22,374 nucleotides of DNA, taken from positions 1 to 22,374 of the IMG/VR virus record IMGVR_UViG_3300035232_000964. One strand, 5' to 3'. Position numbers and translations under genes: made by a program. Positions 1-21,739 of this stretch are shown piece by piece. The notes beneath the pieces were generated by a model that was not told where the DNA came from, made no database searches, and saw nothing but the letters and a program-made list of their open reading frames with translations. Source of the DNA: a virus. The stretch's first letter is position 1. The number at the start of each line of letters is the position of its first letter.

Positions 1-317
1 CTAAGGTCTCAGGTACAATGCGTGAAGTTATTGCCTTTATGCTGAACTGGAAATATAACACAGAATTTGCTTCTAACGATATTTCATTTGAAATGTCTAG
101 TGACTTTGCACCTATGGTAGGTGGAGAAGGTGCTATGCGGCTTATTTCTGAATGGTATCAAGTAGGAATTATTAGCCGCTCAACTTTCGTTAGTGTTGCT
201 AAGTACAACGACTTCCTACCTGCAGACTACAGCGATGAAGACGCTGTTGAAGAAATACAAACAGATCCATTGGCAACACAAGCAAATACTAACACTGAAA
301 TGGATATAGAAGAATAA
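1..317 (+). CDS. Portal protein, C-terminal fragment (gene cut by window edge)
   Basis: The frame is open from the first bases of the window (codons from position 3) to the stop ending at 317, so the ATG at 18 is probably internal and the gene begins outside. About 104 residues remain. They carry a pattern seen at the C-termini of DUF4055-type phage portals: a W followed by a G-[IV]-I-S-R-x-T-F segment, then a short helix and an acidic tail with an L-P-A-D-Y step. The portal forms the dodecameric DNA channel at one capsid vertex. Placement directly before a MuF-type protein, scaffold and capsid is the classic head-gene order and is much of the support. Only the tail end is visible, so the family assignment is moderate. 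Confidence 0.68.
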   Translation, partial: KVSGTMREVIAFMLNWKYNTEFASNDISFEMSSDFAPMVGGEGAMRLISEWYQVGIISRSTFVSVAKYNDFLPADYSDEDAVEEIQTDPLATQANTNTEMDIEE

Positions 318-343: not shown

Positions 344-3300
344 ATGGATATCAATACTAAAATATATGATAGAATCATAGACCATTTAACTGATGTTCGT
401 CTTTATGAAGAAGGCGTCCAATTACAAAATAAACGGATTATGCAAAGGCATAGAAAACGTTTAATGGGTGTTTTAAAAGATAATATAAGAGGCGATGTCA
501 CCCCAGAAGTAAAGCGCTTTGGGAAAGAACTTTTAAGTCATCAGAAAACAAGCATGTTAGAATTTTCTACTTCTCAACTTGACTTTCATTCAGATAATCT
601 TAATAAAGAACTAAAATCCTTTTACAAGGTAAGTAGGCCAAAGACTAAAGAGTTATTGGCTGAAATTACTGGACCTAATATTAAAGGGAAAAGAGATATA
701 GTTGGTAATATTAAGAATATATCTGCAGGTGAATTAGTTCGTATACAAACAAAAGTTAAATCGGGGTTGGCTTCAGGGGCTAGTCAAAATGACATTATCA
801 GAGATGTTCTGAAGACAACAAAGTTAACAGAAGCTCAGGCTAGGTCTTTAACCAGAACCTCTATTACAAGTACTCAAACTGCTGCGCTAAATAAGGTGGC
901 AGATTCTAACTCACATGTAATAAAAGGTTTTGTTTTTACTGCTATCTTGGATAGTCGTACTAGCCCTATTTGCTCCTATCATAATGGTAAGATTTATGAT
1001 GTTAACGATAGTCGTTTTCAACCACCATTGCATTGGAATTGTCGTAGTAGTCTAGTGCCTATAATTAGATCAAAAGATGAACTAATAGAGCAAAACACTA
1101 GTCGCCTTAATAAAACAAATTTAAAAAAGAAAAATCCAGAGTCTTTAACAGGGGTTATACCTAAGACAGAAAGCTTTGGTGCATGGTTAAAAAGACAACC
1201 TTTTGATATCCAGACTAAATTACTTGGTACTATGGAGAAGGCAAATTTATTTAGAGAGGGTAAACTGAAATATGAACAGTTTATAACCCCAATAGGTAAG
1301 GCGCTTTCTATACAAGCTTTAAGAAACAGGGCTGCAAATGCTACATCTGTTTTTGCCCCTAAGCAAAAGATTAGAGAAATTGATGTTAACATATCTTCGT
1401 CTCGTCCTAGCTCTTTAATAAAAAGTGTTGATAATAAGAATGCTGTTCGTCAAATGTTTATTCTTGACTCAGATGATTTTTCTAAAACAATGTCTTTAAC
1501 GGATTATAAGGGTACAACCTTAGTTGGGAAAACTGCTTCTAGGCGCAGAGTCGGTAACGAATTTGATGAAAGAAATTTTAGTGCTGATCCTCTAACCGGA
1601 GAAATAAAAAATAATAATATTTATGATCCAGACTTTAATTTATATCAAGAACGTATAGATTTCATGAGAGGATCAAAATTACTTTCAAACGATGAAAAAG
1701 ACTTTATTGAGTCTATAGCCGCTGGCCTAGATGATAAAATTTCTGTAAATCAACAAACAGTAGTTATAGAAAACCTAAGAGTAGTATTAGAGCGATACGC
1801 TAAAAACAAAGAACCTTGGAATGATCTTGCTGCTGTCTTAAGGGCAGAAAACAGGTTTGCCGTTCAAAACGTCTCTCGTTTATTAGATACAAGATCTCGT
1901 GAGAAATCTAAAATGTTTGTTAGTTATCTTTCAAAAGATATTCCTCAAGTTCAAATAATGGGAAAATATTACCAGTTAGATAATCTAATCGATAATCAGC
2001 TCAAGGATCAGAGGTATATTGATAATTGGAGAAGTAAAGAAGGCAAGGCTCTTGCGAAGAAAATATATTTTTCTGGGAGAGCGCCATCAAGGGTTTACTT
2101 CAGAAATTACTTTAAAAATTACCCTAATAGAGAAAAACTAATAAATAATTTTAAAGAACAAATCACATTCAAAAAGGCTTATGATAACTTTAAAAATAAA
2201 TTTAACAGAGAGCCTTCCGATAATTGGATTACTAATATTGTTTCTAAGGGCCGTGAAGACATTAGGCGTATTCTTGATTTAGAATTTTTAAATCTTAAAA
2301 GAAAGCCTACATCTAAAGTAATGGATGATACTGCACTCAATGTTTTAACAAAGGCAGTTAAGCTAGTAGCCTCTGGTCAGTCTACTGACTATGATAGTCT
2401 AGCTATTAATATCGGAAAAATGTTATCTAAAGATTTTGAAAACATCATACCTTTTACTAAGCATACTTTAAAGGAACACCACGCAGAGGGTTCAAAAATC
2501 CTAGATTTGCTTGTTAAACAAAACTTAATTAGAGTTCAGTTTAGAGGTAAAACCCGCAGAGGTATACTTGATCTTGATACAGGCAGATCTTCCGGGGGGT
2601 GGGGTGATACCATTTCTAGAGAAGTTTCTGTTATAGACAAGGGGTTGCTTAGACTACAAGAAGCAGAACGAAGAGTAACAATTGCTCGTAGACTAGGTAC
2701 TACCTCCGCTAGAGACCGCCTTTATGTAAAAGCTGGTAAGAAAACTTTTGTAGATGCAAGAGGTAATGAAACTGGAATACCTTTAATTTCTCGTGACAAA
2801 TTTGCTGATTATGACGCAAAACAGATTGACAGAGAAATGGCCCAAATGTTAAATCATGTTATGGATGTTGAGTATGGAGTTGATAACGAGTTCTTTGGTT
2901 TCATGGATGATCTTGTTAGGTTTAGAGATCCAAGGGGAAACTCTAAGTACTATGACAGTATTAATGAATTTCGTCATGAAATTTTGAACCGTGGAGAGCA
3001 AGGCTACGGTCTAATGGCTACGGCTAAATACCATGCACAACGTGGTAAGAACTTCAGAACACAAGCATTTATAGACTCTCGTGGTCGTGTCTATCATAGA
3101 GGTTACTTAACACCTACAGGTGGTGAGCTGGCTAGACCTTTTCTTAATTCAGGAAAAGCAATTAATATGTCTGACGGTGCTTTGGATGAGTTAAAAATCC
3201 AAATAGGTTCGATGATTGGTCCCGGCACAGAGGCGCTTACACAAAACGGTCGAAGGGCTATCTTTAATCGTAATAGAGAAAAGCTTGTGGAGCTAGGTGA

Positions 3301-4705
3301 CATTATGATGTCTAGCACACAGCGTGATAGGCGTATGCGAGAGTTCCTTGAACATCCTTTAATCAGGGGTTTAGAAGGCTCAGAAGTTCCAAAACTTGCT
3401 AGGATGGCTTTAGAATACACTAGAATAGAAAGACATCTTAATAGTGGAAAACCATTAACAAGTTTTAAAACAAAGTTAATGATTGAGAACGATGCATCAT
3501 CTAGTGGTGCGCAGATCATTGGGCTTTCTACTGGAGACAGAGCCGTATCACAAGCGTCTAATGTTCTTGCTACAACTCAGAAAAACAGGCTTTATGACCT
3601 CGTTGCAATGGATACAGTAAATGATCCCGACTTTATCAAAATCCCTGCATTAAGAGATGCTGGTCTTACTTGGGAAGACCTTGCCAAGGCAGCTAAATCT
3701 CAAAACATGGTATCATTTTATGGTGCTGGTGATGCTACTAAAACAGCTAATGTTGCTAGTAAGTTATCTAAGGTATTAGATGACAAAGGATATATTACCG
3801 TTACTAAAGACAATTTAGGAGAAAATCTCCGAATTGTTGATGGTAAGATTAAAGTTGCTGAGAGATTAGGTGCTACAACCACTGTAAATGAGTTATCTTC
3901 TTTTAGACGAGAGCTTGTAGAACTTATAAATAATAACGAACCTGTTGGTAGAACATTACTTAAACAGGCTCAAGACATACACCCTGATGTTGGTGTATTT
4001 GTAGAAAAATTGACTAATGCAAGACGAGGGATTATTGGTCCTAAAGAATTTGCGGAAGTCTCTAGAATTATGTCAAAGAACCTTGCAGCACGGGCACCAG
4101 TAACCGATAAGTTTATTAATTACTGGAAAGACGTTGCAAGGGTTTACGTCAATGAAACTAAAAAGGTAGACATACCTTGGGTAACATTTGATGGTAAAAT
4201 TATGACTCAAAGATACCGCCCTAAAATACAAGAACGGATTGAATTTCGTGATCCTGTTACTAACAGGCGGATCGCTAATATCTATGAATCAAGTGCAGAA
4301 GATGGAAAGCTTTTAGGTAAAGGCTCTTTGAATGATGCAAGAATTGGTCTAGGTGTTAACGGAAACCATAGCAATGACGCTGTTATTGTAAGAAGGTTCC
4401 ACCTTTGGGGCCGGAAAAACAACGTTGAAACTGCTACAATTCACGATGCTTTCTTTACTAATATTGGTGAAGCAAGACGTGCAAAAGACGCTTTAAGAAC
4501 CATCTATGCAGATGCTCTTGAGGGTGATACGATTAGAAATACCTTAAAAGAAATGCGCAAACAAGGTCTTTCTTTTAAATCGTATAAGGAGCTTTTAAAG
4601 AAAGCTAAAGAACAGGGGTTGATTGACCCCCCTAATAAGATCACAAGAAAAGACATACTTGCTCCAATCCGTGAAGGCGAGGACTGGTATGGAATTGGTC
4701 CATAG
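344..4705 (+). CDS. MuF-like minor head protein fused to an N4-type virion single-subunit RNA polymerase (1453 aa)
   Basis: Residues about 100-240 form a phage Mu F-like head morphogenesis domain: T-E-A-Q-A-R-S-L-T-R-T helix, then the Cys/His cluster C210, H213, H230, C233 with the P-P-L-H-W-N-C-R signature. MuF-family proteins (SPP1 gp7 is the model) bind the portal inside the capsid. The C-terminal part carries every core motif of single-subunit RNA polymerases: DxxGR at 911-915 (D911, R915), motif A D1050 followed by ASSSGAQ, motif B K1118 to Y1126-G1127, and motif C H1367-D1368. From remembered N4 numbering (R424, D559, K670, Y678, D951), the R915-D1050 distance of 135 equals that in N4, and the long B-to-C gap is also closer to N4 than to T7. 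One unbroken frame links both parts, with an AAAGGGG ribosome site 6 nt before ATG. Residues about 250-490 are unrecognised. Inferred role: packaged polymerase delivered with the DNA to transcribe early genes. Confidence 0.88.
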   Translation: MDINTKIYDRIIDHLTDVRLYEEGVQLQNKRIMQRHRKRLMGVLKDNIRGDVTPEVKRFGKELLSHQKTSMLEFSTSQLDFHSDNLNKELKSFYKVSRPKTKELLAEITGPNIKGKRDIVGNIKNISAGELVRIQTKVKSGLASGASQNDIIRDVLKTTKLTEAQARSLTRTSITSTQTAALNKVADSNSHVIKGFVFTAILDSRTSPICSYHNGKIYDVNDSRFQPPLHWNCRSSLVPIIRSKDELIEQNTSRLNKTNLKKKNPESLTGVIPKTESFGAWLKRQPFDIQTKLLGTMEKANLFREGKLKYEQFITPIGKALSIQALRNRAANATSVFAPKQKIREIDVNISSSRPSSLIKSVDNKNAVRQMFILDSDDFSKTMSLTDYKGTTLVGKTASRRRVGNEFDERNFSADPLTGEIKNNNIYDPDFNLYQERIDFMRGSKLLSNDEKDFIESIAAGLDDKISVNQQTVVIENLRVVLERYAKNKEPWNDLAAVLRAENRFAVQNVSRLLDTRSREKSKMFVSYLSKDIPQVQIMGKYYQLDNLIDNQLKDQRYIDNWRSKEGKALAKKIYFSGRAPSRVYFRNYFKNYPNREKLINNFKEQITFKKAYDNFKNKFNREPSDNWITNIVSKGREDIRRILDLEFLNLKRKPTSKVMDDTALNVLTKAVKLVASGQSTDYDSLAINIGKMLSKDFENIIPFTKHTLKEHHAEGSKILDLLVKQNLIRVQFRGKTRRGILDLDTGRSSGGWGDTISREVSVIDKGLLRLQEAERRVTIARRLGTTSARDRLYVKAGKKTFVDARGNETGIPLISRDKFADYDAKQIDREMAQMLNHVMDVEYGVDNEFFGFMDDLVRFRDPRGNSKYYDSINEFRHEILNRGEQGYGLMATAKYHAQRGKNFRTQAFIDSRGRVYHRGYLTPTGGELARPFLNSGKAINMSDGALDELKIQIGSMIGPGTEALTQNGRRAIFNRNREKLVELGDIMMSSTQRDRRMREFLEHPLIRGLEGSEVPKLARMALEYTRIERHLNSGKPLTSFKTKLMIENDASSSGAQIIGLSTGDRAVSQASNVLATTQKNRLYDLVAMDTVNDPDFIKIPALRDAGLTWEDLAKAAKSQNMVSFYGAGDATKTANVASKLSKVLDDKGYITVTKDNLGENLRIVDGKIKVAERLGATTTVNELSSFRRELVELINNNEPVGRTLLKQAQDIHPDVGVFVEKLTNARRGIIGPKEFAEVSRIMSKNLAARAPVTDKFINYWKDVARVYVNETKKVDIPWVTFDGKIMTQRYRPKIQERIEFRDPVTNRRIANIYESSAEDGKLLGKGSLNDARIGLGVNGNHSNDAVIVRRFHLWGRKNNVETATIHDAFFTNIGEARRAKDALRTIYADALEGDTIRNTLKEMRKQGLSFKSYKELLKKAKEQGLIDPPNKITRKDILAPIREGEDWYGIGP

Positions 4706-4752: not shown

Positions 4753-4799
4753 AAATATCTATAAAATTATAACTCAAGCTGTGCTTGGAAGGAAAAATT

Positions 4800-5480
4800 A
4801 TGAGTAAAGAAAATGAAGTAACTGAAGAAGTAACTGAAAAAGAAGAGTCCAACGAGACTCAAGAACAAGAAACTGTTCAGGAGGAATCTGTCACTAATGA
4901 CGAGGTAGATCCGATTGAACGTGAAGTCCAAGAGAGGCTTGCTAAAATGAAATCCAACATGGATCGCATGGCTAGTGAGCGTGATGAGGCTCTTAAAAAA
5001 GCAGTTGAGATTGAACAAAAACAAAAACAGGATCAAATTCAACGGCTAGAGGAAGAGGGTAAAATGCAAGAGGCTTTAGAAATGAAGCTAGCAGAAGCCC
5101 AAGCAAGGCTAAAGGTATTCGAAGAAGAAAATATCAAGCTAAACCGTGATAGTGTAGTTAATTCTGCCTTAGGCGGATTGGAATTCCGTAATGAGCGTAG
5201 TCGTCAAATGGCCTATCGTGATATTGTTGAGCAACTCGTTCAAAATGATGATGGTCTTTGGGTTCATAAAACAGGAACCAATATTCAGGACTTTATTAAG
5301 ACTTACTCTAAGAATGAAGATAATTCGTTCTTATTCCGTGTTAAAGCAAATACAGGTGCAGGAACATCAAACAACTCCGGCACTCCGTCAATGGATCAAA
5401 AGAAATCTATTGGTGAAATGACAACAGAAGAAGTTCTTGCCTTGGCGGCTAAAGGTCAATTAGGCAATTACTCCTATTAA
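4800..5480 (+). CDS. Capsid scaffolding protein (226 aa)
   Basis: The product is very acidic at its start (E/T/Q-rich, about residues 1-40), then has a long charged, coiled-coil-like helix (about 40-115, rich in E, K, Q, with almost no Pro or Gly), and a more ordered C-terminal third ending in E-V-L-A-L-A-A-K. This composition and the position directly before the capsid gene are typical of phage scaffolds, which guide procapsid assembly and leave before maturation. I chose the ATG at 4800 because GGAAGGA at 4787-4793 lies 6 nt upstream; a TTG at 4785 in the same frame overlaps that ribosome site and is unlikely. No protease signature is visible, so there is no sign of a scaffold-protease fusion. 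The family cannot be named precisely. Confidence 0.8.
   Translation: MSKENEVTEEVTEKEESNETQEQETVQEESVTNDEVDPIEREVQERLAKMKSNMDRMASERDEALKKAVEIEQKQKQDQIQRLEEEGKMQEALEMKLAEAQARLKVFEEENIKLNRDSVVNSALGGLEFRNERSRQMAYRDIVEQLVQNDDGLWVHKTGTNIQDFIKTYSKNEDNSFLFRVKANTGAGTSNNSGTPSMDQKKSIGEMTTEEVLALAAKGQLGNYSY
4815..4838 (+). repeat. Two tandem 12-bp copies inside the scaffold gene
   Basis: GAAGTAACTGAA is present twice head to tail with no mismatch and encodes E-V-T-E twice in the acidic N-terminus of the scaffold. It looks like a recent in-frame slippage duplication and has no evident function beyond lengthening the acidic tail. Confidence 0.8.
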
Positions 5481-5513: not shown

Positions 5514-6629
5514 ATGGCTATTACAAATACAGACTTTCAAAATGTAGCTCTCGCAATCTCTGCCTATGCAGACGAAGCCTACACAACTGAAAAGAAATTG
5601 AACTCTACAGGTATCGTTGGTCAACGTGACGATATTAACGCTGATGGCGAATCCTTTGTTGGTCAGTTCCGTTGGTACAAACCACTGTCTGCAAACATTA
5701 ACGTTCCTTCTTTGTCTTCTGCAACAGACGGTACTTACACTGATGTTACAACTGACATTGCTAACTACGTTAAGACTGTTCGTACCTTTGGTGCGCAGCA
5801 AGTTAACCTGCAAGAAGTTGTATCTAAGCAAGACGGTCTTTCCAAAATTGCTCGTGACTTTGCACAAGTGCGTGGCGATGACGAAGGTAATGCTTTGCTG
5901 TCCGTTCTTAAAGGTGTTGCTGCACACGAAGTTGCACTTGGCGATGCTGGTGGCGCTGGTAACGGTGGTATCACAACCTTTGAAACAGATGCAGATGCAG
6001 CCGCTACAGGTTTCTTTGTAGACATTAACGATGCTGGTGATTTCGGTGCCGCTGCAACAGGTTCTTCTGATGCACGTAAACTGTTTGACTCCTCTGCTAT
6101 TGGTGCCGCTCGTGGTGAGCGTCTCTTCAAAGCAATTGGCATGGCATACAAAGACCACGAACCAGACTTCATGTATCTCGCAACTTCTCCTGAAGTTATG
6201 GCTGAAATGCGTGCTGCTAACTTGGTTGATGACACAACAGTAACTGATGGCAACCTTGAGTTCTCCACAGTCTTTGGCGGTAAATTCCGTTTGATCATGA
6301 CTCGTGCAACACAAACACAAGCTGCTGCTTCTGGCGACTTGAACGCTCAGTCCACTAAGTGTTCTTTCATCTTGAAGCCAGGTTCCGTTTCTTTCGCACC
6401 TGTAAATACACCTACTCCTGTTGAAGTTGACCGCAATGCGGCTGCTTACACTGGTGGCGGTTCTACAAACATTTGGTATCGCTACGGCTTCATCATGCAC
6501 CCAATGGGTTATGATTGGGCAGGTGCTACTAACGCATTTGCAACTAACGCAAACTACGCTGCATCTGCTTCGTATGTTCGTAAAATGGATGCACTGAACC
6601 TCGGCATCTTGCCTGTTTACCACTCATAA
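5514..6629 (+). CDS. Major capsid protein (HK97-fold type, 371 aa)
   Basis: Size, position right after the scaffold, and composition (Ala, Asn, Thr and Asp rich, start M-A-I-T-N-T) fit a major capsid protein. The segment around residues 85-130, with V-R-T-F-G-A-Q-Q-V followed by a long helix through A-R-D-F-A-Q, resembles the spine helix region of phage coat proteins, and the late G-Y-D-W-A-G segment is common near the C-terminus of such coats. AAGGAAA sits about 8 nt before the ATG. Codon use differs from the neighbours: AAC, TTC, GGT, CGT and GCA dominate, as expected of a very highly expressed gene. There is no obvious protease-cleaved prodomain. The HK97 fold is inferred from context; I cannot place it in a named capsid family from sequence alone. 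Confidence 0.86.
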   Translation: MAITNTDFQNVALAISAYADEAYTTEKKLNSTGIVGQRDDINADGESFVGQFRWYKPLSANINVPSLSSATDGTYTDVTTDIANYVKTVRTFGAQQVNLQEVVSKQDGLSKIARDFAQVRGDDEGNALLSVLKGVAAHEVALGDAGGAGNGGITTFETDADAAATGFFVDINDAGDFGAAATGSSDARKLFDSSAIGAARGERLFKAIGMAYKDHEPDFMYLATSPEVMAEMRAANLVDDTTVTDGNLEFSTVFGGKFRLIMTRATQTQAAASGDLNAQSTKCSFILKPGSVSFAPVNTPTPVEVDRNAAAYTGGGSTNIWYRYGFIMHPMGYDWAGATNAFATNANYAASASYVRKMDALNLGILPVYHS

Positions 6630-9798: not shown

Positions 9799-12700
9799 AT
9801 GAGTGGCGTAGAAATTAGAGTACGCTCGGATAGTCGTCCAGCGCAAAGAGATTTAGCTCGACTAAATAAAAGTATAGAGAGCATTTCTCGGACAGCCAAT
9901 CGTGTTGAAAAAGCAATCGCTGCTATTGGTACTGCTGTTACTTTTGCATTCAGCGCAGATGCGCTTACTAAAGCTTCTGATAAATTTATTGAGTTAGAAA
10001 ACAGAGTTGCGCTTGTTACTGGACGTACACAAGAATTAACAAAATCGATGGATGCACTATATAATGTATCTATTCAAACAAGATCTGGTATTGAGACCAG
10101 CGTTGAAACATTTAATAGATTTGGCAGAGCACTTCAGGGTGTAGAAGCTGGCGAATTAATTAATATTACTAAAACAATACAACAAGCCGTTGCTATCAGT
10201 GGCGCTGGCACTGAAAGCGCAAGAGCTGCACTGTTTCAGTTAGGGCAAGGCTTAGCCTCTGGCGAACTAAGGGGTCAAGAACTTAACTCAGTTTTAGAAC
10301 AGACTCCTCGTATTGCTCAAGCAATTGCTGACAGCATGGGCGTCCCTATTGGAGCGCTCAGAGAATTAGCAGCGCAAGGACAAATCAGTACAGCTGTAGT
10401 CTTTAATGCTGTAAAGTCTCAAGCAGCAGTTATTGACCAAGAATTCCAAATTACAAAAGGTACTGTTGGTCAAGCGCTAACTAATTTGTTTGATCAATTT
10501 GGAAGAGTTATTGGTCAATTCGATAAAGTAACACTAGGGATTTCCTCTGTAGCAACTTTCTTTAGAGACCTTGCAGTTGGGATTAATGAAAATGCAAACT
10601 CTATTAGTTTAGGGATTGCAAACGCATTTTCGACAGTAGAGTCTACAACGTATGGATTAGGGGTAGTATTCTCAGGGTTAGGCGCAATTTTTGGCGCAAC
10701 CTTTGGCAGAATTATTGATGCTTTGCCAAGAGTAATTCTCCCAATGAGAACTCTTAGCGATGATGTAACTGCCTTAGCAACTTTTGGATTTACAAGACTT
10801 GCAACAGAAATTGCGTTTGTTGCAGGTAGCATTGAAGCCTTTGCTTCGGATGTATTTGGTCTTAACTTTGAAGGCACCATCTTTAGGCTATTCCAGGCAA
10901 AGAGCCTTGTTGAGTTTGGAAGAGAATTAGAGAATATTGCAGAAGTTGTTTCTGCTTATGGTAATAGATGGTATAATGTTTCTAACTTTATAGAAAGAGG
11001 CATTAGGCAAACTAACTTTGCACTTTTAAATACAGGTATTTACTTAGGTATTGTTGATCAAAAGTTAATAGCATTTAGATATGTATCTTTTGAAAGATTT
11101 GGTAAAGTAGTTGGAGTAGTCGGCGATTTATTTAGAGCACTAGGTAGAGCCATACTGTCATTAGATAGTGTTGCCTATGTTGTAACAGGTTTGCTCGTTG
11201 CATTTCAACAAATAAGGAGAACCTTTGAAGGCTTCTTAAATCTATTTAATACAGGGGTTGTTTCTGTAAGAAATAGAATTGAAGGTATTTTTGAAAATCT
11301 TTCCTTTGGTTTTGTAAAAGCAAATACTTCTGACATACTAGAAGCATTTGGTGGACAATTTGGACAAGCTGCGGCCTTAGTAATTAAGAACTCAGATGTA
11401 ATGTCTCGTTACTGGTCAAATTTAATGGACTCTATTAACGAGAGAACCACTCTTCTAGGAAAAACACAAAGAGCAATCAGAAACTTTGCTAGAACAGTAG
11501 AACGTTGGTTCTATTGGATATACGACAAAGTTATTGGGAATTCTTGGTGGACAGACACTATGGAAGGTGTCTATCATAAGGCCGTAGAAAATTTTCAAAA
11601 GACCACAGGGGTAATTAAATCTTTCTTAGCAGACGTCTCTTCAAAATTTAGTAAAGTAAACTTTAAAGAAGTCATTCTCAATGCTAAAGTGAGTTTTACA
11701 GAGTCTAATATTGTAGAGTCTGCAACAAAAATCGCAGACAACCTTATAGGAAGATTAAAATCAGCAGCTAAATCAGTTGCAAGTGTTATTGCAGACTTGT
11801 TTAAGGGAATATCAGATGTTTTCCCTAAACTCGCAGAGGGCTTTGCTGTTGCATTTACCGGCGCTGTTTTAGCAGCATTTTCACCTGCCCTATTCGCTAA
11901 AATCGGTATTGTGTTTGGTCTTGGCCTTATCTCAGCTATTGGAGACAATATCTCTCAAGTTGTTGGTAAGGCAATTGTTGACTCAAACTTTTTCGCATCT
12001 CTTGGCGCTGGTCTAGGGGGCGGTATTGGCGCATTCTTTAATGCTATTGCACAAAATTTACCTCTTATCTTAACAAGTTTATTTCAGTTTGCTAAAGAAT
12101 TTGGTAGAGCACTTATTGATGAAATGACAGGTGCTTTTGGCGCTATTCCACAAGCTTTATCCGCTGCTACCTTTGGTATATTTGATACTATCTTTGGTGC
12201 GATTATTGCTTCAACTGGATTTTCTCTCCTAACTGTTGGCTTTGAGAAAACAATGAAGAGAATATCAGGTATTCTTGGAGTGTTTATCGGCACTGGCAGA
12301 TCAAGAGGTGGAGTTGTTGAAACTGCTATCTTTGGTAGAGCAGGTTTTAAAGGCTCTAGAGGACGAACTATTGCAGGTGTACTTGGAATTCTCACTGCAG
12401 TAACTTCTTTGACAGGTGGATTTACAGAAGGCGGCGGCTTTGCAGAAGCTGCTATTTCGGGAGGTTTGCTAGGCTACTATCTATTTGGACGTAAGGGGGT
12501 CAACTTTTTGGCTAGTGCAGCCAAAGAGACTATGGGCCAAATTACAGGCACAATTACAGGTAGTCTAAAAGACATTTCTAAATCAGGAAAGTCAGCTGCA
12601 AGCGGATTAAACATTGGTAATATACTTTCTGACTTTAAGTCTGGTAACTTTGAAAAAGGTTTAAAAGGGGCTACTACAGCCTTTAATGCATTTAAAACCA

Positions 12701-15700
12701 ATATCTCTGCAGGTAAGTTTGACACTTCCTTTACATCGAGTCTTGCTAACTTAGGTGGAAAATTCTCTGAACAGTTTAAAACAGGGAAATTTACTTCTAA
12801 AATAGAAAATAGGTTCCAAGGGCTTGGAAGCCTTATGGGCGAAAAACTTGGTAAAGGATTTGGTAAATCTAAAGGCTTGGTTGTTGTTAGTGCTGCATTA
12901 CTAAGTATTGTAGCTAGTGCATCACAAGCAAGTGCTGCTACTGCAAGTACTGGTGTTCAAGTTAATAATATTATTGACACTCTAATGGACAATGCTCTTG
13001 AGATTGGTTACTTTGGTCTTCTAGGGCTAACGTTCTTTGGACCAAAAGGATACGTTGCTGCATTTAGACTTATAACAGGTACTATAGGTAAATTAGGTGG
13101 TTTAATAGTTGGCGGGTTGACTAGCAATGTTGCAAAGTCTGCCGGAAGCGGAATATTAAATGCACTTATATTTGGTGGTAAGGCTGCAGGAAAAGGCGGA
13201 AAGGTAAATCTTGGACCTGTTCTTGGAGGGTTAACTTCACTAATCGGCGGTGTATTTAGAACTCTTGGTTCTTTATTATTAAGATTAGTTCCATTAATTT
13301 TCTCTGGCACAGGATTATTAATCGGTGCGGTTGGTCTTCTAGGGCTTGTATTGTTTGGCGAAGGCGATGGCATCTTTGCTAAAATTTCTAACTTTGGTAG
13401 TGCATTAAGAAGTGCTATTACTGGTACAACCAAAGAAGCTAGACGCTTTAGAAAAGAACTCGATAGTCTTCTCAAGATCGAAAAAGTCGGGGAGATGGAT
13501 CTAAACCTAAAAGCACTTGTTGATACTGTCGATCTTAATAGTGTTAATGAAAAGGGTTTTAAAGAGCTTAAACGATCTCTTGAAATTGCTAATAGAACTT
13601 TTGAAGATAACCAAGACAAATTTGATGAGCTTGGGGAGCTAACTTCTCTAGAAGAAAGCAAAAACAGAGCAGCGATTCGGCGGGTTGAAGAAGCAGTTAA
13701 TAGGCTAAACCTCAATGATCCCAAAGCAGGAGTTTTTGCCGAATTAACAAAGGCATTTGCGCCAGAGAATATTGGGGGCAAAGGGTTTAACTTTATAAAC
13801 ACCCCTATTAACGCTACAGACACTCCCGAATTAATAAAAGCATTTTCAAGAGCCTCCGCACAAGATGCAACTTCTTTAGATCAAGTAACTTATCTAAGAA
13901 ATCTTGATAAGTATTTGCGTGACGCAACACAAGGTAGAGAAACCCCACCAGAGCAACAAGCTGTTATTGACTCTCTTGGTGGATTTAACTTGTTGTTTGA
14001 TCTTGTTGAAAAAGGTATACCGATTACTATTGACGAAAAGCGTCTTAGTTCAATTGGTAGTATTGTTAAAGAGCTTCAAGAGGCCTCAAACGCAATATCA
14101 ACAATCGAGCCATTTAGTGCTATAGTGGGCGAAGGTTCTATTGAAACTCAATTAGCTTTAATTGGGAGGTTAGGTAATGAACTTAGAAATACAACCCAAT
14201 TTATCTACGAGATGTCTCAACTTGATTTTAGAAATTCAAACCTTGAGCAACAATTTAAAGACTTAAATGAGCAAGTATCATTACTAAACAGCTTAGTCCC
14301 TGAAACTGCTCAGTTTGAACCTTTATCAGAATCTCAATTCTTTAGTCTCAGCGATAATTCAAGATCTGATTTGCAAAAGCAAATTACTGGTGTATTTGAC
14401 CAAATAAAGGATGAATTTCAGAAGAAGGTAGAGTCAGATTATCAAGACAGTCTTGGTGGGCAACTTGGTATAAACGCTATTGGCACTTCTGAGTTTAATG
14501 AAAGAGTTGAAAAACTTGTTAATAAGGCTCTTGAAGATGGTTTAACATTGCAGGATCTTGCATTGTATCAACTTGATCCAAATCAATTTGCTCAAGATAT
14601 TGCAAATGCCTTATTTACTTCAGGTAAAATTGTCGAGTACTCTGAAAGAGAAATTGAAAAGTTTGCTACACCGCTTAAAACTCGTGTAGCAGAAGCAGTG
14701 GACGAAATAGGTGAATTTGTACCTACTATCGACTTTAGTGGTGTTATTGATACTAATCAACTTGCTCAAAATGCCGCAGAAGCAGAAAAGTTTATTAAAC
14801 TGGTAGATGCTTTTTCTGACAATCAGGAAAATATCCTGATATCCCCAGAAAAGCAAGCTAAAAACACTCAAAAGCTTTTAGAAAGACTAAGGATAGACTT
14901 TACAGATTATACAAATTCCTTTGCGTTACTACAAGGCGCACTTAATATAGCAAGTGACCCTATTGACGAAAAGGACTTGTATAAGAAAGACGACAAGACT
15001 CGTCAAACTATTCAAGGTCTAACTCTAGAAATATTACTTCTTAAAACTGTGGTGTCTTCTTTAGGCAAGGACGGTATACAAGAAGGCGAGATACCAATTC
15101 TTGCAGATTACTTGGCACAAATTGCCACACTTACAAAGGCTCTTGAAGCTGAAATCAATAAGCCTCAAAAAGCAGGTAAAACTATTTTTGAGAAATTTGT
15201 TGGTAGCATTAGTAATGCTGGATTTAGTGCTGATTTAAAATCTGCGTCTAGGTTGTCACAAAAGGCGGTTGAATCATTAACCCCTTATCTTAAGAAAGTT
15301 GACAACGCTCAAAAAGCTATTACTAATTCTGCGCTAAAAGACTCTGCGGGTAGAGCTAAGAATCTTGATATTATAAAACAATCAAGGGAAGAAATTGCTA
15401 AAATCTTTCAAACCCAAGATGTTGCTACTGCGCAAGCAGGGTTAGAGGGTTTAGGCCTAGATCCTAATCTTGTCTTTGAATCTGAACAAGCTTTAAATGT
15501 TGCTAAAGAAATTGCAAATCTTAATGTAAAACTAGGTTTAACTGATAATAGTAATCTAGAAGGCAAAAAGAAGATTACTAACGAAATTGAAAAGCAAACA
15601 GAACGGTTAGAGCTATTAACTCAGAAGAACAAAGAAGCTACAGAGGGTATTAAATCTACCTTTGGAGAAGCCTTAAAAGAACTAATTAAGGGTGGATCTA

Positions 15701-16332
15701 CAATTAAACAGTTTTTCAATAAAGTTCTTGACTCAATTACTAATCAAATTATTAATTCAGTAGTTGATGCTTTTGTTACTTCTTTTATAAGGGCTTCTGG
15801 TTTAGAAAAGACCTTTGATGATTTCTTTGCTGGACTTGGTCTTCTAGGTCAAAATACAGGAGAATCTATTGGCACTGACATTGCTTCCTCTATGGGGGAC
15901 GCTCTGGACAAAGGTGCTAAGTCTAAAGGCACTAGCTGGCTTAGTAGCCTATTCGGTGGCGCAGAAGGAGGTCTCTTTAGTATGCTAGGGGGTTCTGGCA
16001 GCGGCGGCGGAATTGGGTCTTTATTAAATACAGGGCTTGGTTTCTTTGGACTACCTGCCTTCTTTAATACAGGTGGAATCGTTCCAAGCACTCCGTATTC
16101 TCAATCAGGAAAAGATAGTGTACCTGCTATGTTAACGCCTGGAGAGCTAATTATACCCGCTAATAGGGTTAACGACTTTATGAAAGGCAATAATTCAAGC
16201 CAACAAACAGTAGTTAACTTGTCTATCACAGGAGACGTATCACGGCAAACAAGACAAGAAATTGTTAAGATGTTGCCTACAATTGCTAGCGGTGTTAACG
16301 CACAAAACAAAGAAAATAACTATAGACGCTAA
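9799..16332 (+). CDS. Tail tape measure protein (2177 aa)
   Basis: Residues about 63-217 match the tape-measure N-terminal domain: L-E-N-R-V-A-L-V-T-G-R-T, a run through T-V-E-T-F-N-R-F-G-R, G-Q-G-L-A-S-G-E-L-R-G-Q-E-L-N-S-V-L-E-Q, and A-A-Q-G-Q-I-S-T-A-V-V. The middle is helical with several hydrophobic stretches (about 680-715, 1025-1050, 1155-1195) that could be the membrane-active segments some tape measures use during ejection. The C-terminus has the usual T-G-G-I-V-P (about 2091) and L-T-P-G-E-L-I-I-P-A-N-R-V (about 2112) signature. AAAAGGAGG is about 6 nt before ATG. At roughly 0.15 nm per residue the length predicts a tail near 0.33 micrometres. No lysozyme or peptidase domain was recognised. 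It follows its chaperones in standard order, but tail-tip genes do not follow it. Confidence 0.93.
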   Translation: MSGVEIRVRSDSRPAQRDLARLNKSIESISRTANRVEKAIAAIGTAVTFAFSADALTKASDKFIELENRVALVTGRTQELTKSMDALYNVSIQTRSGIETSVETFNRFGRALQGVEAGELINITKTIQQAVAISGAGTESARAALFQLGQGLASGELRGQELNSVLEQTPRIAQAIADSMGVPIGALRELAAQGQISTAVVFNAVKSQAAVIDQEFQITKGTVGQALTNLFDQFGRVIGQFDKVTLGISSVATFFRDLAVGINENANSISLGIANAFSTVESTTYGLGVVFSGLGAIFGATFGRIIDALPRVILPMRTLSDDVTALATFGFTRLATEIAFVAGSIEAFASDVFGLNFEGTIFRLFQAKSLVEFGRELENIAEVVSAYGNRWYNVSNFIERGIRQTNFALLNTGIYLGIVDQKLIAFRYVSFERFGKVVGVVGDLFRALGRAILSLDSVAYVVTGLLVAFQQIRRTFEGFLNLFNTGVVSVRNRIEGIFENLSFGFVKANTSDILEAFGGQFGQAAALVIKNSDVMSRYWSNLMDSINERTTLLGKTQRAIRNFARTVERWFYWIYDKVIGNSWWTDTMEGVYHKAVENFQKTTGVIKSFLADVSSKFSKVNFKEVILNAKVSFTESNIVESATKIADNLIGRLKSAAKSVASVIADLFKGISDVFPKLAEGFAVAFTGAVLAAFSPALFAKIGIVFGLGLISAIGDNISQVVGKAIVDSNFFASLGAGLGGGIGAFFNAIAQNLPLILTSLFQFAKEFGRALIDEMTGAFGAIPQALSAATFGIFDTIFGAIIASTGFSLLTVGFEKTMKRISGILGVFIGTGRSRGGVVETAIFGRAGFKGSRGRTIAGVLGILTAVTSLTGGFTEGGGFAEAAISGGLLGYYLFGRKGVNFLASAAKETMGQITGTITGSLKDISKSGKSAASGLNIGNILSDFKSGNFEKGLKGATTAFNAFKTNISAGKFDTSFTSSLANLGGKFSEQFKTGKFTSKIENRFQGLGSLMGEKLGKGFGKSKGLVVVSAALLSIVASASQASAATASTGVQVNNIIDTLMDNALEIGYFGLLGLTFFGPKGYVAAFRLITGTIGKLGGLIVGGLTSNVAKSAGSGILNALIFGGKAAGKGGKVNLGPVLGGLTSLIGGVFRTLGSLLLRLVPLIFSGTGLLIGAVGLLGLVLFGEGDGIFAKISNFGSALRSAITGTTKEARRFRKELDSLLKIEKVGEMDLNLKALVDTVDLNSVNEKGFKELKRSLEIANRTFEDNQDKFDELGELTSLEESKNRAAIRRVEEAVNRLNLNDPKAGVFAELTKAFAPENIGGKGFNFINTPINATDTPELIKAFSRASAQDATSLDQVTYLRNLDKYLRDATQGRETPPEQQAVIDSLGGFNLLFDLVEKGIPITIDEKRLSSIGSIVKELQEASNAISTIEPFSAIVGEGSIETQLALIGRLGNELRNTTQFIYEMSQLDFRNSNLEQQFKDLNEQVSLLNSLVPETAQFEPLSESQFFSLSDNSRSDLQKQITGVFDQIKDEFQKKVESDYQDSLGGQLGINAIGTSEFNERVEKLVNKALEDGLTLQDLALYQLDPNQFAQDIANALFTSGKIVEYSEREIEKFATPLKTRVAEAVDEIGEFVPTIDFSGVIDTNQLAQNAAEAEKFIKLVDAFSDNQENILISPEKQAKNTQKLLERLRIDFTDYTNSFALLQGALNIASDPIDEKDLYKKDDKTRQTIQGLTLEILLLKTVVSSLGKDGIQEGEIPILADYLAQIATLTKALEAEINKPQKAGKTIFEKFVGSISNAGFSADLKSASRLSQKAVESLTPYLKKVDNAQKAITNSALKDSAGRAKNLDIIKQSREEIAKIFQTQDVATAQAGLEGLGLDPNLVFESEQALNVAKEIANLNVKLGLTDNSNLEGKKKITNEIEKQTERLELLTQKNKEATEGIKSTFGEALKELIKGGSTIKQFFNKVLDSITNQIINSVVDAFVTSFIRASGLEKTFDDFFAGLGLLGQNTGESIGTDIASSMGDALDKGAKSKGTSWLSSLFGGAEGGLFSMLGGSGSGGGIGSLLNTGLGFFGLPAFFNTGGIVPSTPYSQSGKDSVPAMLTPGELIIPANRVNDFMKGNNSSQQTVVNLSITGDVSRQTRQEIVKMLPTIASGVNAQNKENNYRR

Positions 16333-16343
16333 GCCCGTATAAT

Positions 16344-16377
16344 AAAAACTGATAAAAATGAGGCATCGATAATGAAG
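16344..16377 (+). promoter_or_regulatory. 34-nt promoter-like repeat, divergent copy (copy A)
   Basis: Gapless alignment with the copy at 16728 gives 26 of 34 identical bases, including the A-run, GCATC and ATAATGA core (here CGATAATGA instead of CTATAATGA). It lies just after the tape measure stop and overlaps the start codon of the HNH gene, so it is either a decayed promoter, or drives a leaderless or downstream message. Confidence 0.5.
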
Positions 16378-16677
16378 AAATGGAATAAGCTCTTCAAGCT
16401 AAAAAATGGGCAGTTGTATTGGAAAGAATCTCGTGGCAGACAGGCTGCAGGAGGACTTGCAGGGACTAATCATGGAGATGGCTATCGTACAGTACGTATA
16501 GCTGGCAAAGCAGTGTATGCACACCGTATTGTCAAGGAAATGACTACTGGCAAAAAAGCTAATGGTCAAGTAGACCACAAGGACCGAAACAGGTCTAATA
16601 ATAAACCAAAAAATTTACGCACAGTGTCACGATCAACTAATAATAAAAATAGAAAATCGTGGCAGCGTAAAAAATGA
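16372..16677 (+). CDS. HNH endonuclease, homing type (101 aa)
   Basis: The product has the layout of the HNH_3 family of free-standing phage endonucleases: a G-Y-R-T-V-R-I-A-G-K sheet region, A-H51-R-I-V, then V-D68-H69-K-D-R-N-R-S-N-N77, and N81-L-R-T-V with a final T-N-N-K-N. These residues build the beta-beta-alpha-metal site that nicks or cuts DNA. It is very basic and has no extra domain. Such genes are mobile and often sit between other phage genes, as here between the tape measure and small genes. An ATGAGG site lies 8 nt before the ATG. The start codon falls inside a promoter-like repeat, and the gene is closed by a strong terminator at 16683, so it is a self-contained unit. Confidence 0.82.
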   Translation: MKKWNKLFKLKNGQLYWKESRGRQAAGGLAGTNHGDGYRTVRIAGKAVYAHRIVKEMTTGKKANGQVDHKDRNRSNNKPKNLRTVSRSTNNKNRKSWQRKK

Positions 16678-16682
16678 CTACA

Positions 16683-16711
16683 GGGTCACTCTTCGGGGTG
16701 GCCCTTTTTTT
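16683..16711 (+). terminator. Strong rho-independent terminator with TTCG loop
   Basis: GGGTCACTC and GGGTGGCCC form a 9-bp stem (two G-T pairs) capped by the very stable TTCG tetraloop and followed by seven Ts. It isolates the late structural and HNH transcripts from the small-gene region. A promoter-like repeat starts 16 nt after the T-run. Confidence 0.92.
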
Positions 16712-16727
16712 ACCAAATATGTCAATA

Positions 16728-16761
16728 AAAAAGTGAGAAAAACAACGCATCTATAATGATA
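16728..16761 (+). promoter_or_regulatory. 34-nt promoter-like repeat (copy B)
   Basis: The element begins with AAAAAGTGAGAAAA and ends in ACGCATCTATAATGATA. It is 33 of 34 identical to the copy at 17068. It contains CTATAATGA, comparable with the CTATAGGGA end of T7 promoters, and also a perfect TATAAT. No TTGACA-like -35 lies at the right distance, so a phage single-subunit polymerase is the more likely reader. Transcription would begin about 40 nt before the next start codon. Confidence 0.7.
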
Positions 16762-17068: not shown

Positions 17069-17101
17069 AAAAGTGAGAAAAACAACGCATCTATAGTGAT
17101 A
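17068..17101 (+). promoter_or_regulatory. 34-nt promoter-like repeat (copy C)
   Basis: Identical to the copy at 16728 except for one base, which changes CTATAATGA to CTATAGTGA. That change breaks the bacterial -10 hexamer (TATAGT) but keeps and even improves the likeness to a T7-family promoter end. It drives the small membrane proteins and hydrolase that follow. Confidence 0.72.
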
Positions 17102-17501: not shown

Positions 17502-17890
17502 TAACAACAGCAGCAATGTGTTTAGCACTTAATATGTTCTTTGAGGCTCGTAATGAACCACTCGAAGGACAACTACTAGTTGCAGAAGTAACTCTTAATC
17601 GAGTTACCTCTAAGCATTACCCAAACAACGTATGTGATGTTGTTTGGCAAAGAAAACAATTTAGCTGGACTCATGATGGTAAACATGATGACCCAACCAG
17701 AATGAACTACCTCGACAGAGTCTCTTGGGATCACATCCAAAAGGCGGCAATTGAAGTGTTAAAAAACTCAGAAAAAGTGTTGCCGGGAAGTAAGGCGACT
17801 CACTACCACGCAGACTATGTTAAACCCTATTGGGTTAAAGACATGAAATATATAGGCAAGGTTGGATCACATTTGTTCTATAAAAAGTGA
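17498..17890 (+). CDS. SleB/CwlJ-like cell wall hydrolase, endolysin (130 aa)
   Basis: The protein matches the Hydrolase_2 (SleB/CwlJ) family over its whole length: catalytic Glu in M-F-F-E16-A-R-N-E, then G-Q-L-L-V-A-E-V-T-L-N-R-V, Y-P-N-N-V-C-D-V-V, K-Q-F-S-W, A-T-H-Y-H-A-D-Y-V-K-P-Y-W and a closing G-S-H-L-F-Y. Members cut peptidoglycan glycan strands. There is no signal peptide, so export would need a holin, and two small membrane proteins lie directly upstream. The start is GTG at 17498, overlapping the previous stop by 4 nt; this gives the expected N-terminus of the family. The stop codon TGA is part of the GTGAG of another promoter-like repeat. Confidence 0.88.
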   Translation: MITTAAMCLALNMFFEARNEPLEGQLLVAEVTLNRVTSKHYPNNVCDVVWQRKQFSWTHDGKHDDPTRMNYLDRVSWDHIQKAAIEVLKNSEKVLPGSKATHYHADYVKPYWVKDMKYIGKVGSHLFYKK

Positions 17891-17915
17891 GAAAATTAAC
17901 GTGTCTATAATGAAG
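17882..17915 (+). promoter_or_regulatory. 34-nt promoter-like repeat overlapping the hydrolase stop codon (copy D)
   Basis: It matches the copy at 16728 at 28 of 34 positions, sharing AAAAAGTGAGAAAA and TCTATAATGA. The element starts inside the last codons of the hydrolase gene (the TGA stop is within AGTGAG). It lies 27 nt before the next gene's start codon and has the same CCAAGAGG leader downstream. Confidence 0.68.
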
Positions 17916-19324: not shown

Positions 19325-21496
19325 TTGGAAAATAAAACTATTCTGGACTGTTTAACAGAAGATCTAGAATATCGCCAATCTGCGTTAGACAAAAGACAAT
19401 CAGCGAGTTTTTTAGATAAGATGGAGGCAAGAGACATTATAGAATTCTCTTATGCTCATATCTTAAAAGGACTAGAAAGAAAATCAACTCTTGTAGAGGT
19501 AGCAAGCAGCATTGGAAGGAGGCTGCGACAAAAGCTAAGACAAAAACAAAATAGTGTTTTAGACATTCAAGGTGGTTGGTTTGTAATGATCAGCTATATT
19601 GAGTTAGGGATACTAGGTTATCGCAAAAAACACACTTACCGAAATGGTAAAAAAGATAAACACAGATCATACTTTATTTATGCTAAAGACTGGAAAGCTA
19701 TTAAAGAGCTTATGGATTTAGTTGATACAGAAAAGTGTGATATGTTTCCTGTAAACACTCCTGCTACACCTTGGGATGGTTCGGCTTATCACCCAACAAC
19801 AGGTATCAGTGTAATTAAGAAAGGATACGAGGATGCTCTAAAGTATTTTGAAAATAATGACATGAGCTATATTGTTGATACCTTGAACAAGCTAAACAAT
19901 ACTGCTTGGGAAATAAATCCTAAAGTGTTTGAGGTATATAAACAGTGTATGCACAGCGAACAAAATCCCTTTAAGTTTACTAAAGAGATTGATCCAATCA
20001 AACAGGCGTCTTTAATCATCGAGGCGGAGGCTATCCAGAGGCTTGCAGAGAAGCACATAGGACAACCATTCTATCACTTGTATAACCTGGACTTCCGGGG
20101 TCGCATTTACCCTAACACAGCGTTCTTACACGAGCAGTCCAGTGACAATGCAAAGGGTATCCTGTTACTTCACGAACCAGTAGTTTTAGGTGAGTCAGGT
20201 TTGTACTGGCTTTGTGTTCACACCGCTAACTCTTGGGGTAACGACAAGGTTACTCTTGATGATCGAGTTAGTTGGGTTGAAGAAAACTGGGGATGGATTA
20301 TTAATCAAGCAGAGAACCCCTTTGGCACTTGTGATTGGATGAAAGCAGATAAGCCTTTTAGTTTCTTAGCAGCTTGCTTTGAGATTAAGATGCTAGCAGA
20401 TTGGTGTCGTCAAGGTAACTCAGAAGAAGACTTCCCTAGCTGTTTACCCGTGTATATCGATGGCTCTAATAACGGCGTTCAACACCTTGTGGCAATGTCT
20501 CAAGACGATGAGGTTGCGCCCCTTGTTAACTTAGTTCCTCAAGAACTCCCCGGCGATGTCTATATGTTTATTGCCAATAAAACCTGGGAAAATCTTGAAA
20601 AAAGAAAAGCTAAGCTTGATGCTCCTACAATTAACAAGTTTAACGATGTTTTCCAAACCGCTGTTAAACTCCAAAGAGACTATCAGGAAGCCCCTGATAA
20701 ATCAGAGCGTAAAGCCTTGGCCTTTCAAGCTGCTCAAACATGGCGCAATCAAAATCGTGATCTAAGAGAAAAACTTTTCCCTGTTTATTGGACTAATATC
20801 CAAGATAAGAAGATCCAACGTAAAACAGTAAAACGAAATGTTATGACTCTTGGCTATGGTGGTACGGCTTACGGTATGGGGCAACAGGTAATAGAAGACA
20901 CAAGGGATATCTCGCCCTATCTAAGGGACAAAGAACATCTCTGGGGCGCTCTCCTTGGCTCTCTGGTATATCAGACCTGTTATGAGGAGCTTAAAGGTCC
21001 AGCCCGTATGTTGCGTTTGTTTCAGACTTTAGCAGAAAGAGCAAACGAAAAGAAAGTATACTTAAGCTGGATATCACCAATCACTAATTTTCCTGTATGT
21101 CAAGCCTATAGGAAACCAACGACTAAACGCACTGAGCTTAAGTATGGTGATGAAATACTTAAAGTGCAATTACAAGTGTGGGAAGAAACTACAGTAAATG
21201 AGAGCAAACAAAAAACAGGTGCTGCACCTAATATTGTTCATAGTCTCGATGCTGTTCACTTGACAATGTGTATACACGATGCAGACTATACAACTACTGT
21301 TGTGCATGATTCCTTTGGGTGTCATGCTGGTAATATGTCTAATATGTTTATGCACGTAAGACAGAAGTTTGTAGATCTCTATAAGGCAGAGCCTTTAGAG
21401 GACATTCTACAACAGTTAAATGCAACCGACTTATCACCCCCGAAAGGAACACTAAATGTCGAGTCAGTACTTAAATCAGATTTTGCCTTTGCTTGA
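19325..21496 (+). CDS. T7-like single-subunit DNA-dependent RNA polymerase (723 aa)
   Basis: All hallmarks of the T7 family are present: D256-F-R-G-R260-I-Y (T7 D421-R425), motif A Y-I-D379-G-S-N-N-G-V-Q-H, motif B R499-K-T-V-K503 to Y511-G, P-N-I-V-H-S-L-D-A before motif C, H661-D662-S-F-G, and the conserved C-terminal S-D-F-A-F-A. D379 and D662 hold the catalytic metals. It transcribes phage genes from its own promoters in the infected cell. A stop codon directly precedes the TTG start, which has AAGAGG 8 nt upstream, so TTG is the furthest possible start. The protein is about 160 residues shorter than T7 polymerase, all missing from the N-terminal domain that in T7 helps contact the promoter. 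The end overlaps the next gene by 41 nt. Confidence 0.96.
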   Translation: MENKTILDCLTEDLEYRQSALDKRQSASFLDKMEARDIIEFSYAHILKGLERKSTLVEVASSIGRRLRQKLRQKQNSVLDIQGGWFVMISYIELGILGYRKKHTYRNGKKDKHRSYFIYAKDWKAIKELMDLVDTEKCDMFPVNTPATPWDGSAYHPTTGISVIKKGYEDALKYFENNDMSYIVDTLNKLNNTAWEINPKVFEVYKQCMHSEQNPFKFTKEIDPIKQASLIIEAEAIQRLAEKHIGQPFYHLYNLDFRGRIYPNTAFLHEQSSDNAKGILLLHEPVVLGESGLYWLCVHTANSWGNDKVTLDDRVSWVEENWGWIINQAENPFGTCDWMKADKPFSFLAACFEIKMLADWCRQGNSEEDFPSCLPVYIDGSNNGVQHLVAMSQDDEVAPLVNLVPQELPGDVYMFIANKTWENLEKRKAKLDAPTINKFNDVFQTAVKLQRDYQEAPDKSERKALAFQAAQTWRNQNRDLREKLFPVYWTNIQDKKIQRKTVKRNVMTLGYGGTAYGMGQQVIEDTRDISPYLRDKEHLWGALLGSLVYQTCYEELKGPARMLRLFQTLAERANEKKVYLSWISPITNFPVCQAYRKPTTKRTELKYGDEILKVQLQVWEETTVNESKQKTGAAPNIVHSLDAVHLTMCIHDADYTTTVVHDSFGCHAGNMSNMFMHVRQKFVDLYKAEPLEDILQQLNATDLSPPKGTLNVESVLKSDFAFA

Positions 21497-21671: not shown

Positions 21672-21739
21672 AATACCTGACGTTAAAGAACAATACTGTT
21701 CAAACTAACTAACCCTTATATATCCAAGAGGAAATAATC

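Follow-up and report, generated by a model that had tools for sequence, protein, structure and literature searches.

The stretch of DNA analysed here (the window) comprises positions 1 to 22,374 of the IMG/VR virus record IMGVR_UViG_3300035232_000964, a stretch of 22,374 nucleotides. Between the portal gene and the genes for scaffold and major capsid protein it carries a gene in which a MuF-like head protein is joined to a T7-like single-subunit RNA polymerase (RNAP); the coordinates of this fusion gene and of the other features are collected in Table 1. Residues 134-237 of the product matched PF04233 (Phage_Mu_F) in Pfam (E=2.8e-13, 51 bits versus a cut-off of 29.6) and residues 136-240 matched TIGR01641 (SPP1 gp7) in NCBIfam (E=8e-17, 61.6 versus a cut-off of 39.65). 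Residues 1030-1417 scored over the curated Pfam cut-off for PF00940 (RNA_pol, T7-like enzymes; E=3.8e-6), and the RNA polymerase family PHROG 414 matched the fusion protein with E=5.9e-23. A preliminary description, made from the letters of the window alone, had placed a MuF domain and a complete set of single-subunit polymerase motifs in one frame of 1453 codons, and every motif position that it named was found to be right.

Conservation of these positions was examined by alignment of relatives. In the polymerase half D911 and R915 of the DxxGR motif, D1050, K1118, Y1126, G1127, H1367 and D1368 were invariant in 53/53 aligned relatives, with identity down to 33%, and the G of DxxGR varied (G, A or S). 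Motifs A, B and C and DxxGR are thus all present, and the predicted structure has the right-hand fold, in agreement with the description of the enzyme as complete. In the MuF half C210, H213, H230 and C233 are present together with PPLHWNCR, as had been described; C210, H230 and C233 were invariant in both the marine and the freshwater clade of relatives, but H213 was replaced by R in 19 of 50 and does not belong to the invariant set. A further sequence, YGIGP or YGVG at the extreme C-terminus (window 4688-4702), was conserved in both clades.

Table 1. Features of the window and loci with introns in related viruses.
Feature	Position	Strand	Basis or remark
Portal protein, C-terminal end, directly upstream of the fusion	3..317	+	PHROG 145, E=2.4e-5
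MuF-RNA polymerase fusion gene	344..4705	+	Single uninterrupted open reading frame of 1453 aa from an ATG, without internal stops
MuF/SPP1-gp7-like module, residues 1-336 (Pfam core 134-237)	344..1351	+	PF04233, TIGR01641; homology to the MuF of phage Kolga stops at residue 336
Helical linker region, residues 337-540	1352..1963	+	Conserved within the fusion family
T7-like single-subunit RNA polymerase domain, ~residues 541-1453	1964..4702	+	AlphaFold2 model, T7 RNAP match, PF00940
DxxGR motif, residues 911-915 (D, R invariant)	3074..3088	+	Alignment of relatives
Motif A catalytic Asp, D1050	3491..3493	+	Alignment of relatives
Motif B, K1118 to Y1126 (group I intron site in EBPR siphovirus 1)	3695..3721	+	Alignment
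Motif C, H1367-D1368	4442..4447	+	Alignment of relatives
Scaffold protein	4785..5480	+	PHROG 206, E=1.4e-11
Major capsid protein	5514..6629	+	PHROG 247, E=2.6e-26
Tape measure, gene separate from the fusion	9799-16332
Class E promoter-like site 1 (weakest)	16345..16375	+
Class E promoter-like site 2	16729..16759	+
Class E promoter-like site 3, then a short hairpin	17069..17099	+
Class E promoter-like site 4	17883..17913	+
Stand-alone T7-like RNA polymerase (predicted non-virion RNAP)	19325..21496	+	PF00940 E=1.5e-82, PHROG 414 E=4e-134
Class L (SP6-like) promoter-like site AATACCTGACGTTAAAGAA, following the stand-alone RNAP directly	21672..21690	+
Loci with group I introns within or close to the RNAP part			L135, L130, L132, L156, L118, L125, L160, L002 (analysis labels)

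Structure prediction and comparison of the two halves bore out the division into a head protein and a polymerase. The AlphaFold2 model of residues 336-1453 (mean predicted local distance difference test score, pLDDT, 80) superposed on T7 RNAP with Z 31.8 over 517 residues at 3.5 Å, on mitochondrial RNAP with Z 28-29, and on the mini-polymerase of the coliphage N4 virion RNAP (vRNAP) with Z 20.5 over 640 residues at 7.5 Å. A sequence profile picked up T7 RNAP chains collinearly (E=5e-4) and not N4 vRNAP, and hhalign with a single-sequence profile gave no match to N4 mini-vRNAP. In BFVD only the protein of roseophage DSS3_VP1 covered the model, followed by T7-like RNAPs and then by N4-like vRNAPs; the N-terminal model matched head morphogenesis and minor capsid proteins. 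Its structural matches in the PDB were rejected as helical-bundle look-alikes, with Z under 10. On the evidence of this model, the polymerase half is a T7-superfamily enzyme by predicted fold, and the term N4-type, used in the preliminary description, is a functional comparison and not a family placement.

The same fusion was recovered by searches of viral collections. It is present at full length and 62% identity in the cultured roseophages DSS3_VP1 and DSS3_PM1, where it is annotated as minor head protein-like, and at about 33% identity in EBPR siphovirus 1, of the freshwater/EBPR clade. Marine IMG/VR contigs with the same full-length fusion number in the hundreds. For the window protein IMG/VR yielded 78 loci; there were 296 confirmed relatives that had an alignment, and 49 EBPR-type loci. 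All 31 of the full-length matches that were checked read through without a stop. No relative and no prophage copy was found in the genome_contigs collection. Because the intact fusion occurs in independently sequenced cultured phages, a chimaeric contig is excluded. The ratio of non-synonymous to synonymous substitution (dN/dS) in the RNAP part was 0.03-0.10, as low as in the MuF part, and the MuF-polymerase fusion is real, conserved and under purifying selection. With respect to the freshwater clade, the 78,554-base contig IMGVR_UViG_3300046810_000041 is probably a complete genome, because about 127 bases of identical sequence stand at both its ends; a cluster of tRNA-like repeats is present as well.

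Introns also interrupt the polymerase half in some relatives. The copy in EBPR siphovirus 1 is broken at motif B (NMV^TFYGAG) by inserted DNA that includes an HNH gene and matched a group I intron at E=2.7e-8, below the gathering score. Seven further loci had group I introns over the gathering score, several at breaks in the open reading frame and some with two per locus. Introns inserted into the best-conserved sites of a polymerase are typically found in genes with a required product. Separately, five fusion frames (L137, L152, L155, L162 and G029 in our labelling) were about 100-400 aa over the usual length, with in-frame insertions in the RNAP part. These are possibly inteins or extra domains; in the three that were tested no insertion family scored over a Pfam cut-off.

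Pelagibacter phage Kolga (circular, 48,659 bp) served as a natural control. Its MuF module is 29% identical to that of the window, and the alignment stops at window residue 336, which shows where the MuF module ends. In Kolga gp59 (45152-47053) the same MuF is followed by a C-terminal HExxH metallopeptidase-like region, with weak Pfam matches below cut-off, and the comparison of these sequences suggests an exchange of cargo on MuF. Kolga encodes a T7-like RNAP related at 31% identity; this is its only RNA_pol gene; a fused RNAP is absent, and a class E site (see below) was not found in it within 3 mismatches.

As in Kolga, the window carries a stand-alone T7-like RNAP, here in addition to the fused one. 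All 19 of 19 long records had at least one RNA_pol match and most had both enzymes, those with a single enzyme being mostly fragments. In fusion-bearing genomes the stand-alone gene is typically followed directly by a promoter-like site of a class resembling the SP6 promoter, termed class L, as in the window. DSS3_VP1 has about 14 class L sites on the plus strand, of the form ATAGG-NNN-CGTTAAAGA and similar in sequence to the SP6 promoter, at its structural and replication operons. The class L sequence reads AATA(C/G)CTGACGTTAAAGAA in the marine clade and AACCCGTTAAATTAAC in the freshwater clade.

A second class of promoter-like sites, class E, is a 31-nt motif, AAAAGTGAGAAAA-N5-GCATCTATAATGA. 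Four sites were found in the window within 3 mismatches, and none were expected from shuffled sequence. The marine form can be read as GTGAGAAAA-N5-GCATC-TATA-ATGA, and the freshwater form is GCG-N8-GGTATCTTATATGAA, i.e. GCG-N8-GGTATCT-TATA-TGAA. Each of the two DSS3 phages has two exact matches (at 35791 and 36238 in DSS3_VP1), and class E is near-identical between phages whose fusion proteins are 62% identical. In six mapped marine genomes class E was confined to the interval that separates the tape measure gene from that of the stand-alone RNAP. Scanning the viral collection for exact class E returned 69 and 49 stretches. Among contigs of at least 30 kb found by class E alone, 25 of 33 carried the fused RNAP, including all 18 of those over 50 kb. 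On contigs with a located stand-alone RNAP, 59/59 exact class E sites lay on the strand of that gene, 45 of them within 8.5 kb upstream of it (51 if the contigs are circular) versus about 4.6 expected; the contigs with class E are related, and these site and contig counts are not independent.

Marine class E sites are followed by a hairpin. A perfect hairpin was present after 54 of 67 unique marine sites, starting 0-1 nt past TATA in 52 of the 54, versus 1 in a control stretch and 1.8 in shuffles. The hairpins from window 17099 and from other marine sites covary (TGATAC/GTATCA, TGATATA/TATATCA, TGAACT/AGTTCA and others). After freshwater sites a hairpin was found at only 9 of 64. An N4-like hairpin promoter as the recognition element of class E is not favoured, the freshwater sites being mostly without a hairpin. 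The hairpin is possibly a stabiliser of the 5' end of early transcripts, and its placement would fit a transcript that starts immediately past TATA, which is how T7-family promoters are arranged. At the first class E site of the window the ATG of a small HNH_3 endonuclease gene (16372-16677) lies inside the site (ATA-ATG), and its mRNA could therefore be leaderless; a terminator-like hairpin is found 3' of this gene, at 16682-16705.

Taken together, these observations point to a fusion that is probably a virion RNAP carried by a MuF head protein and acting in a cascade of two polymerases. In this cascade residues 1-336 would be a portal-proximal minor head protein of the MuF/SPP1-gp7 kind, joined by the linker to a complete T7-superfamily RNAP (~541-1453). 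The fusion would be produced late, would enter the procapsid by way of its MuF part and would be ejected through the tail together with the DNA. The ejected RNAP would then start at class E promoters, giving transcripts of small early genes and of the gene for the second, soluble T7-like RNAP, which in turn would read the class L (SP6-like) promoters at the replication and structural operons, that of the fusion itself among them. The gene lies in the portal-scaffold-capsid cassette, and the loading of a polymerase into the virion, as put forward in the preliminary description, is plausible.

Several points weigh against this cascade. The equivalent of T7 R627, at position 1114, is not conserved (A, R or Q), in a register set by eye from K1118 and Y1126; the adjoining K1115 is kept in 50 of 53 relatives. 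Kolga is a single and distant control genome. The link between class E and the fusion lies within one virus family and is in part due to shared descent. The marine class E box includes TATAAT, and its use by host RNAP is possible. We infer catalytic activity, packaging, ejection and the pairing of enzyme with promoter, and the presence of the fusion in the virion is likewise reached by inference.

The reader of class E must precede the stand-alone RNAP, and would be either host RNAP or a virion RNAP. If it were host RNAP, the fusion could still be a virion enzyme, with class E a set of host TATAAT promoters and the MuF-borne RNAP mainly helping to pull DNA in or reading a few genes. T7 itself relies on host RNAP for its early genes and uses RNAPs for DNA entry, which together with TATAAT in the marine box speaks for such an arrangement. 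However, at -35 class E reads AAAAGT, with neither TTGACA nor a TGn extension; the class E sites were absent from a sigma-70 scan of the window, which gave 11 matches versus 17.7 by chance; the freshwater form TTATATGAA has lost TATAAT; and the hairpin 0-1 nt past TATA fits a start at that point and not 7 nt downstream. We therefore regard reading of the early genes by the host enzyme as unlikely, and take the MuF-borne RNAP as the putative reader of class E.

It is still less probable that the polymerase half is retained in the particle and not ejected, in a role in assembly or packaging, or as a structural or regulatory domain without catalysis. The variable R627 equivalent would suit such a domain, but all of the catalytic carboxylates, like K1118, Y1126 and H1367, stay unchanged down to 33% identity, dN/dS is low, and a whole separate promoter class stands beside the early genes. 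That the polymerase half is an N4-type virion RNAP joined to MuF is very improbable, since N4 mini-vRNAP, which shares the superfamily and the predicted role, is outranked by the T7 and mitochondrial enzymes in fold and by T7 RNAP in profile searches, and is missed by hhalign.

Going beyond the window, we lean towards the wider view that a whole family of long-tailed phages, marine and freshwater, relies for its transcription on two T7-like enzymes that it encodes itself, the one injected with MuF reading a dedicated early class so that host RNAP is not needed for infection to begin. On this view MuF would serve as a general delivery vehicle able to take a whole polymerase as cargo, and would offer a way to a virion RNAP distinct from those of N4, crAss-like phages, jumbo phages and P23-45. 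Virion RNAPs are known in few phage groups, the long-tailed case described being the tape-measure fusion of P23-45, and a T7-like polymerase borne by MuF, if true, would be a further way of loading such an enzyme into the virion, in a family that spans many marine and freshwater viral contigs. The data suggest that MuF, a known carrier of toxin-like domains, may take a polymerase of more than 900 residues through the tail, which bears on the ejection of large folded proteins. The cultured phages DSS3_VP1 and DSS3_PM1, which carry the fusion with two predicted early start sites, provide a model in which this can be tested.

Among known systems, DSS3_VP1 (Naomviridae, Noahvirus; host Ruegeria pomeroyi DSS-3) has in its 1463-aa gp28 a full-length orthologue in the same gene order and with the same class E sites. 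DSS3_VP1 has a deoxyuridine-containing DNA (dU-DNA) genome and encodes a deaminase together with a weak YfbR-like match; both dU enzymes together were not found in the other members searched. Modified DNA as the reason for the fusion was rejected, as 18 other records, some of them fragments, gave one deaminase-family match and none that was YfbR-like. As with the polyvalent MuF proteins, in which MuF is a carrier of swappable C-terminal enzymes thought to be packaged and delivered (PMC5512222), an enzyme follows MuF here; the cargo is an RNAP and not an effector such as PBECR or RelA/SpoT. The available part of that survey does not mention a MuF-RNAP among the MuF cargos, and it places N4-like virion RNAPs only in N4-like phages or prophages. 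A literature search, with most subscription journals outside its reach, gave no description of a MuF-RNAP fusion, which is apparently undescribed.

The fusion shares its fold and catalytic motifs with T7 and SP6 RNAPs, and class L resembles the SP6 promoter, but those enzymes are unfused and not in the virion, and their direct counterpart is the stand-alone RNAP. As with N4 gp50 (Schitoviridae), the fusion is a single-chain enzyme of the single-subunit superfamily, with predicted ejection and early transcription and with a second phage RNAP downstream. N4 gp50, however, is a podovirus protein that measures about 3,500 aa, has N4 flanking domains at its termini and uses hairpin promoters, whereas the fusion has 1453 aa, is borne by MuF at its N-terminus in a siphovirus-type genome and has a predicted fold nearer to T7 RNAP. 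In Thermus phage P23-45 the tape measure, gp96, is joined to a two-barrel vRNAP; this enzyme has a promoter class of its own, from which it reads the pre-early genes, among them the gene of a second RNAP (PMC10770324). The window resembles it in being from a long-tailed phage with an RNAP fused to a (here predicted) virion protein, a second non-virion RNAP and two promoter classes; relatives of P23-45 without the fusion also lack the vRNAP motif (PMC10770324), and Kolga likewise has neither fused RNAP nor class E. The fused enzyme of the window differs in being single-subunit and T7-like and in having MuF, not the tape measure, as its carrier. P23-45 is the closest working example of the same logic, which is proven there.

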